Assembly: GCF_905250085.1 (NCBI RefSeq)
Contig: NZ_CAJNOB010000056.1
Coordinates: 1 to 39,034, forward strand
Length of the DNA stretch: 39,034 nucleotides
DNA from: Candidatus Methylacidithermus pantelleriae
GTDB lineage: Bacteria > Verrucomicrobiota > Verrucomicrobiia > Methylacidiphilales > Methylacidiphilaceae
Direction of reading: 5' to 3'
In this document: in pieces, positions 30,950-33,195 of the stretch
How the letters are laid out: every line of letters starts with the position of its first letter
Position numbering within the stretch: the stretch's first letter is position 1
Program-made: the position numbers and the translations under genes
The notes under the pieces: model-generated
Told to the model about the DNA's origin: nothing
Seen by the model: the letters and a program-made list of their open reading frames with translations, nothing else
Database searches by the model: none

Positions 30950-32053
30950 ATGGGTCAATCGGAAGCTTTGTGGGAGCCATGGATTCTCACGCGGAGGGCC
31001 ACCCGGGAAAACTGGAAAGACATTTCCTATGTGAGGCTGGCGACCGACGTCGGCTCTTTTCCCAAGGGCACCGTTGGGTTAGCAGACCGTATCGTTTACG
31101 GGTATCCGAAGATTCCGAGAATTGAGGTCCTGGAAAAAGGTCTCCGCACTCATTTTACCCACCCTTTCTGGGTGGAAGAAAAGGTCGATGGATACAACGT
31201 TCGCGTAGTTTGTTGGGAGGGAGAGCTCCTAGCACTTACTCGTGGGGGGTTTGTCTGTCCTTTTACGACGGATCGGGCAGGGGACTGGATCGATCGGGAG
31301 ATCTTTCGGGAGATACCCGACGTGGTTCTTTGCGGGGAGGTGGTCGGTCCTGATAATCCGTATGTTATCAGCACGAGCCCTTTGGTCGAAAGGGACGCAC
31401 GCTTTTTCCTTTTTGACGTGATGAGGATGGGAAGCCAAGAATTTGTTCCACACGAGCTAAAACAAGAGCTCGCTCGGCGTTTTGGCATCGATCTTGTCCC
31501 TCTTTACGGCCAATGGACCACCGAGGACATACCCAGGATTAGGGAAATCATTGTGGAGCTTAACCGGAAGGCTCGGGAGGGAGTTATTTTTAAGGAAGCA
31601 GGGGGTCGATCGCTGCGGGCCAAGTATGTGACAGCCTCGAGCGATCTCAGCGACATTGCGGCGATGGGAGAACGTTTTTATGACGTTCATCCTAGCTATT
31701 TTACCAGTAGAATCTTGCGGCTTGTTCTTTTCCTTTCCGAAATTGGAGGAGCTAATCCCCTGGAGCTTGAAACAGAATTAGGCCGCGCTCTTGTTCGGGG
31801 ATACGGAAAGGCAGTGAAAGAATTTCTCAAGCATGGCCAGTGCGGGGACGAGTTTCGGTGCCGATTCCGGAACCCGGAAAACGCCGAGCGACTGATCCAG
31901 CATCTGCACAAGGTGGAGGGGGAAAAGTCACGAACGCTAGTCCGGGAGCTGAAACAAGAGGGGGATTTCTGGGTATTGCGATTCTATAAGGTGTATTCTG
32001 CAACTACTGACTTACTGCGCAACTTGTGGGAAGGGCTCTTGCGTTTTGATTAA
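30950..32053 (+). CDS. ATP-dependent RNA ligase, Rnl3 (Pab1020) family
   Basis: 367 residues, the size of the archaeal Rnl3 ligases. The nucleotidyl-transfer motif I is [10 protein letters not shown] with lysine K78 as the AMP-binding residue. Other marks are [39 protein letters not shown] and LRAKYVT (motifs III, IV and V), followed by the helical C-terminal domain that drives dimer formation. Rnl3 enzymes join RNA 5'-phosphate to 3'-hydroxyl ends, and Pyrococcus Pab1020 makes circular RNAs. The family is mainly archaeal, so transfer is a fair guess. ATG 30950 has no strong ribosome site. The gene is convergent with the partner PIN gene and overlaps it by 42 bases. Confidence 0.92.
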
Positions 32054-32662
32054 GCTGCGGAGAAGGTAACGGAAATGTTTGGCATTGAAAAGCTTGATCC
32101 CGATTTTATCGGCCCATCGGCACATTCCTTTGTCGGCTGACACCAGGAACGCATCGAGCTCAAGAGCTAAAAGAAGGACGTCGACGTCTTCCTTGCTGTC
32201 CAGGATCCCTCTTCTTAAGGTTTCTCGATACCGTTCCCGTAAACGACTGATTAATTGATCCAATCCGATCGAGGTGTCGGAGCTACCGGTTTGCCCTGCA
32301 AGCTTCGTGTGCTCCTCGGCGACCCGGAGACCGTGATCGATCCGGTGTCGTAACTCCTCCATGAGTTCATACAAGAGAGCCCCAGGGACCTGAAGGGTGT
32401 ACTTCCTGGGGGAACGAATCTGGACCACCGACTCAAATTCCGGCGCCAACGCCTCCAGTCCCTTGATCAAACGCAGTTCCTCATAGACCGAAGTTGGCAT
32501 GTAGAAGGCCGCTGATGTTTGTTTGGCAAGAGCAAGGAAATTGGTGACCGCCTCGTCGGTATCATCTCCAAACTGTGAGGCTACTTCCGGATTGGTAAAG
32601 AGACTCGTATCCAGTACGAAGGAAGGACGATGACCTAGTGGCCCTTCCCAACCGGCTGGCAT
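32012..32662 (-). CDS. RNA-ligase partner protein, PIN-fold (MJ_0950 type)
   Basis: 216 residues. PIN-like marks are FVLDTSLF with D18, E61-E62 after the second strand, D159 and D161 in [19 protein letters not shown], and [11 protein letters not shown] with D177 and D185. These acidic residues form the metal site of PIN ribonucleases. The family is known as the partner of Rnl3 RNA ligases because the two occur together in genomes, mainly archaea. Its activity is not known to me; RNA cleavage is inferred from the fold. Here it faces the ligase tail to tail, sharing the last 42 bases. ATG 32662 is the natural start. A joint cut-and-join role is a hypothesis. Confidence 0.85.
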
Positions 32663-33195
32663 GACTCAATATGGAGCTTTTGGCAATCCCTTCCAAGGAG
32701 GTTTCTTTTTGTGTCGAGTCCTTTTCCTTGAGTCCCGGTTGGCCTGGAAAAAAGAACTTCGCCTATCCGCAAGACGAGCCCAAAGATCCCGTGGGTCTTG
32801 AGCCGGTCCGAGTCGTTGTGCGTTTTTTTTCGTAAGCTGGTTCGGGATAACTCGGAGCTTTCCAAGAGAGCTACGTTTTTTGGGCCTGTCAAGAAGATGG
32901 CAGGGGACAGGATGCTCCTGCGTTTCTCTTCGAAGCGGCAAGTAGTCCCGGAAAAAATCTTTTTTTCGATTCCCTGAGCAAAGAAAAAGAGACTCGCGAT
33001 TGGCTTTTTTCTTCTTTTGTTTGCGTTGGGAGAACCAGGACCCTAGGCTCGTCATCCGGTCCATTTTCCTGGGACCAAGGTCTTTGGCGCAACCGATCGA
33101 GAGCCTGGTACCGGAGATGGATGCTGGATTGTTGCCTTCCGTAAATGCGGGTTCATCCAATCTTTCCTCGACCTCCGTCAACCGGAAACTTCTTT
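32663..33195. other. 533-base gap upstream of the PIN gene
   Basis: A 171-codon minus-strand frame at 32666-33181 begins with TTG, is very rich in Lys and Arg, and shows no family features; I regard it as chance. The gap should contain the promoter for the PIN gene. No tRNA or clear terminator found. Confidence 0.45.

Follow-up and report, generated by a model that had tools for sequence, protein, structure and literature searches.

What an RNA ligase of archaeal type and its PIN-domain partner do together in a bacterium, and whether the arrangement of their genes matters for it, are questions raised directly by a contig of Candidatus Methylacidithermus pantelleriae (NZ_CAJNOB010000056.1, positions 1 to 39,034; this whole stretch of 39,034 nucleotides is referred to below as the window), in which the two genes converge and overlap at their 3' ends. 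An earlier note on this DNA proposed that one product joins RNA and the other possibly cuts it, that the complementary 3' ends of the two mRNAs allow each to limit the other, and that a neighboring Nudix hydrolase gene may belong to the same RNA processing or repair module.

Co-occurrence and co-localization of the HARP and Rnl3 genes have been described by Seshadri and Gopalan (mBio 2025, PMC12153264). They found Rnl3 to be overrepresented in HARP genomes, 665 of the 751 HARP-positive genomes being also ligase-positive, and they observed co-localization of the two genes for 127 of the 164 bacterial cases and 163 of the 501 archaeal ones. The usual order was "bidirectional", with 10 tandem cases; Methylacidiphilum is named there as HARP-positive. 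The pairing is already known, including for the Methylacidiphilaceae. What we add is the invariable tail-to-tail order of the sampled bacterial pairs combined with a variable overlap, the head-to-head order of the pair on two haloarchaeal plasmids, and the lack of any third partner.

Identity of the two gene products

The features of the locus are collected in Table 1. In the profile search, the ligase scored 327.9 bits against TIGR01209 (cut-off 136.9); it also matches PF09414, and its C-terminal domain, Lig_C (PF18330), scored 71.6 bits against a cut-off of 25. Motif I (KxDG) is present, with the adenylated lysine K78 in EEKVDGYN, and K78-VDG is invariant in the ligase alignment (A1). The PDB search retrieved 3qwu, 2vug, 8uce and 5d1o as solved relatives, of which the closest are 3qwu and 2vug (Pab1020 of Pyrococcus abyssi). 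The window ligase is like these two in that the nucleotidyltransferase and Lig_C domains extend over its full length and the motifs are shared, but it is ~35-43% identical to them and belongs to a bacterial branch, in which the last two residues before the stop codon are a hydrophobic one and Asp. This C-terminal ending was observed at 62/62 bacterial loci, whether or not an overlap is present, and that of two haloarchaeal ligases differs from it. RtcB, another RNA ligase, was found in 10 of the 13 Methylacidiphilaceae genomes, and Rnl3 is therefore not the sole RNA ligase there.

Table 1. Positions of the two genes and of their common segment in the window.
Feature	Position	Strand	Description and basis
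Rnl3 (Pab1020-family) ATP-dependent RNA ligase, 367 aa	30950-32053	+	TIGR01209, PF09414, PF18330; PDB relatives; motif columns
HARP (PIN_5, protein-only RNase P family), 216 aa	32012-32662	-	TIGR03875, PF08745; PDB relatives; Aq880 residue mapping
Tail-to-tail overlap, 42 bp, codon on codon	32012-32053	both	last 13 codons + stop of each gene

The earlier note was right to call the partner of the ligase a PIN protein, but it missed its more specific identity. The protein matches TIGR03875, "RNA ligase partner", with 214.5 bits (cut-off 95.3) and PF08745, PIN_5, with 209.5 bits (cut-off 27), and the RNA-free RNase P structures 8ssf, 8kda, 7f3e and 7og5 in the PDB with E values down to 7e-66, the solved relatives being 52-59% identical. 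By these sequence matches, the PIN partner is HARP, of the protein-only RNase P family. Like Aq880 of Aquifex aeolicus (PDB 7f3e, 8kd9; ~59% identity), it keeps all the catalytic aspartates: in the alignment, D18, D155, D159, D161 and D177 correspond to D7, D138, D142, D144 and D160 of Aq880, and all are invariant. The spike-helix residues R142 and R146 correspond to R125 and R129 of Aq880, arginines that are needed for pre-tRNA cleavage, and K119 of Aq880 aligns with Q136. Compared with Aq880, the window HARP has both a longer N-terminus and a longer C-terminal tail. All the residues that the earlier note had singled out (K78 in the ligase; D18, D159, D161 and D177 in the PIN protein) are thus invariant, as is D155, which it had not listed, and its picture of an RNA joiner paired with a possible RNA cutter holds, the pair being conserved and both families now identified by profile matches.

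Two sequence deviations deserve mention. In the Methylacidimicrobium-type HARPs (L003-L008, L010), a Gly replaces the Glu beside the catalytic D159 (DSRGDVD versus DSREDVD), and the window HARP has Lys178 where other HARPs have Glu or His. The HARP of Methylacidiphilum infernorum has been reported to oligomerize and not to process pre-tRNA in vitro (Gossringer et al. 2023, as cited in PMC12153264); possibly, the Gly next to D159 and the Lys178 of the window protein are linked to this reported absence of pre-tRNA cleavage in the Methylacidiphilaceae.

Orientation and conservation of the gene pair

The two open reading frames converge and have 42 bp in common, as the earlier note had described. 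One HARP gene and one ligase gene were found in all 13 Methylacidiphilaceae genomes searched (the relatives were taken by name, as Methylacidiphilum and Methylacidimicrobium), and the genes are always convergent and overlapping. They thereby fall under the definition of a HARP-Rnl3 pair, which asks for co-localization within 5 kb on opposite strands. A search for HARP in the rest of the order and class gave no match in 85 other genomes; one Verrucomicrobia MAG outside this sample has both genes, lying apart (L065, L144).

For the wider survey, public genomes were scanned once with the ligase alignment, and 80 bacterial loci were obtained. HARP lies near the ligase at 62 of these, and in every case the two genes are tail to tail; HARP is encoded elsewhere in 15 of the 18 ligase genomes that do not have it nearby. 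When coordinates were compared across 136 Aquificota genomes, 38 adjacent pairs emerged, again all convergent, although the two sets share genomes and their counts cannot be added. Conservation of the pair and of its arrangement, on which the earlier note had made its proposal depend, was observed in the family (13/13), among the bacterial pairs (62/62) and in the Aquificota (38/38). Linkage is not essential, since 17 of the 55 Aquificota that have both genes carry them at separate places; moreover, 14 of the 69 Aquificota HARP genomes have no detected ligase. On two haloarchaeal plasmids the pair is head to head, with ~100 bp between the starts, and the archaeal orientation considered here is that of these two plasmid pairs only.

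The window pair is like the published HARP-Rnl3 pair (PMC12153264) in that the same families are adjacent, on opposite strands, in bacteria of extreme environments. However, that study says only "bidirectional", whereas the bacterial pairs analyzed here can be specified as tail to tail, with an overlap that is frequent but not universal. HARP-Rnl3 pairs were also seen in Brocadia-type Planctomycetota and in Zetaproteobacteria (L091-L110, L064, L081), groups that are absent from the main-text list of that study.

Tree distances of HARP and ligase are correlated (r = 0.90, 54 pairs), which is expected if the pair travels together, although shared species history contributes to this value and the underlying trees are quick ones with long branches. 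The Methylacidiphilaceae genera are united in the ligase tree and not in the HARP tree. A viral origin of the pair was rejected, as no relative of the ligase was found in viral contigs and no HARP in phage records.

The 42-bp overlap

Both stop codons, TAA on each strand, lie inside the shared segment, which encodes HARP residues 204-216. Residue 201 of the window protein aligns with residue 184 of Aq880, so that the overlap starts at about Aq880 position 187. Aq880 lacking residues 184-191 keeps substantial activity, and removal of residues 181-191 nearly abolishes it (PMC8266387). By analogy, these published truncations suggest that the C-terminal tail of HARP that holds the overlap is dispensable.

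The length of the overlap varies even within the family: against the 42 bp of the window, it measures 39 bp in five genomes that belong to one genus and 54 bp in seven that belong to another. Among close convergent neighbors in 139 kb of the window genome, 4 of 15 pairs overlap, the HARP-Rnl3 pair included; this baseline is rough, as it comes from mechanical ORF calling without a trained gene caller, and by this rough measure 42 bp is not exceptional as an overlap size. The convergent order described in the earlier note recurs in all 62 adjacent bacterial pairs, but the overlap is present in only 33 of them (26 by more than 4 bp and 7 by exactly 4 bp), and the two haloarchaeal plasmids depart from the order as well. 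The 29 pairs without overlap have gaps of 1-327 bp (27 pairs) or of 839 and 1070 bp (one pair each), and in these last two an ORF sits between ligase and HARP.

The 4-bp class is explained by the end of the ligase gene, because its conserved Asp codon followed by TAA or TAG puts a stop codon in that antisense frame. The lengths of the 26 longer overlaps are all multiples of three. Codon phase was considered as a sign of selection and rejected, since the 4-bp class follows from the ligase stop context and the lineages are not independent. In the sequence of the pair, no clear intrinsic terminator was found directly 3' of either stop codon.

Neighborhood and genomic background

The genes flanking the pair are lineage-specific, 103 of the 130 neighbor clusters being singletons, and a conserved third gene was rejected because the clusters are clade-specific. 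The suggestion that the Nudix hydrolase forms part of the module has to be abandoned: none of the Nudix, HisB, CutA, MnmA and ClpX genes of the window flanks the pair at the other Methylacidiphilaceae loci, and a single weak match to the Nudix protein was obtained in 80 loci. The ORFs located between ligase and HARP are limited to two single cases: an unassigned ORF at L073 and, in a Methylothermaceae MAG, a gene for a HepT-like ribonuclease at L048 (PF01934, 96 bits; L048:2604-3083). In the window, the ~530 bp that separate the HARP start from CutA (32663-33195) contain no recognized gene, and an ORF of 171 aa on the minus strand of this region (32666-33181) has no family match. An Rfam search found no RNA family near the pair and, in the window, one tRNA-Ser at a distance from it.

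RNase P RNA (RF00010) was found in the window genome and in all 12 family relatives, in one of them as a partial match at a contig edge. HARP is therefore not the only RNase P of the window genome. Among 50 ligase genomes, RF00010 is present in 37 of the 38 non-Aquificota and in none of the 12 Aquificota, implying that HARP works alongside the ribozyme outside the Aquificota. The window genome thus differs from the Aquificota, where HARP is the sole RNase P candidate, and also from Aquifex-type genomes in that its HARP gene overlaps the ligase gene instead of lying apart from it. Fibrillarin gave no match in the window genome (G000) and no more than weak partial matches in the 29 other bacterial genomes tested (at most 29.7 bits, with a cut-off of 27), which makes C/D box RNAs an unlikely substrate.

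Discussion

Cuts made by RNase P leave a 5'-phosphate and a 3'-OH, and Rnl3 ligases of the Pab1020/MthRnl type join 5'-phosphate and 3'-OH ends with ATP. At the level of sequence, the gene identities, the intact catalytic residues, the convergent overlap, the conservation throughout the family and the presence of RNase P RNA are well established, and the reading that we consider fairly probable is that the two genes encode an accessory pair that cuts and joins RNA and is passed on as a tail-to-tail cassette of two genes, with the overlap as a passive by-product of packing. By RNase P chemistry, HARP would cut structured RNA and generate 5'-phosphate and 3'-OH ends, which Rnl3 would close directly, with no need for end-healing enzymes. 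The pair could in this way cut and rejoin, circularize or repair RNA, and it would act as an accessory system and not as the main tRNA 5'-maturase. The overlap most probably originated when the HARP frame ran past its core into the constrained C-terminal codons of the ligase until the first stop on its own strand, which would have added a spare tail to HARP. The reported failure of M. infernorum HARP to process pre-tRNA, as cited in PMC12153264, counts against this reading.

Of the alternatives, the one that survives best, although we regard it as rather unlikely, is that HARP serves as a back-up RNase P while the ligase repairs RNA independently of it, their adjacency resulting from transfer from a shared donor and not from a joint function. 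The presence of RNase P RNA alongside HARP, the presence of RtcB in most of the family genomes and the separability of the pair fit such a division. However, adjacency has been kept across several phyla while the neighborhoods changed, and co-occurrence is nearly complete, HARP being located elsewhere in most ligase genomes that do not have it nearby (15/18).

Control through the overlap itself was the proposal of the earlier note. Complementary 3' ends or transcriptional collision would let the two mRNAs limit each other in the manner of an excludon or a noncontiguous operon, and would balance cutter and joiner. The review PMC7154746 describes such devices in bacteria, the tail-to-tail order is invariable in the bacterial pairs, the overlap is kept in all family genomes, and no clear intrinsic terminator follows either stop codon. 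But almost half of the adjacent pairs (29/62) do not overlap, the genes are apart in 17/55 Aquificota and head to head on the two haloarchaeal plasmids, and convergent overlaps are not rare in the window genome, by the rough baseline. The proposal is thereby weakened as a general mechanism, although transcripts could still overlap across gaps of 1-50 bp, and we hold it to be unlikely; mutual antisense control is neither needed to explain the data nor required by the pair in general. It is more doubtful still that the tail-to-tail order, with transcripts overlapping beyond the coding regions, represents a selected coupling of cutter and joiner at the RNA level, acting in bacteria on a shared substrate that is neither tRNA nor C/D box RNA.

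VapBC-type modules are co-directional operons. The present genes are convergent, and the partner of the PIN protein is a ligase and not a DNA-binding antitoxin, which argues against the view of the pair as toxin-antitoxin-like, in which HARP would be an RNase toxin and the ligase its repairing antidote. This idea, raised in PMC12153264, may draw on the placement of PIN_5 within a VapC-like group in that study, and also on the patchy distribution of the pair, its lineage-specific neighbors and its presence on haloarchaeal plasmids. We nevertheless consider it improbable: no ligase was detected in 14 of the 69 Aquificota genomes with HARP; in the Aquificota, HARP is the only RNase P candidate and hence a housekeeping enzyme; and a ligase knockout of Thermococcus kodakarensis shows no growth defect (PMC12153264). 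Although Rnl3 circularizes C/D box RNAs in Pyrococcus and Thermococcus (work cited in PMC12153264), the model that the same study proposes for archaea, in which the pair matures and circularizes C/D-box-like guide RNAs, is hardly credible for these bacteria, given the fibrillarin results above.

The tail-to-tail rule in bacteria, the head-to-head order on two haloarchaeal plasmids, the absence of a third gene and the absence of a fibrillarin match in the window genome narrow the published ideas: together they weigh against both a classical toxin-antitoxin operon and, where bacteria are concerned, the C/D-box model. The Methylacidiphilaceae, with the pair in every genome examined, provide a clean setting in which to ask what HARP does beside the RNase P ribozyme.
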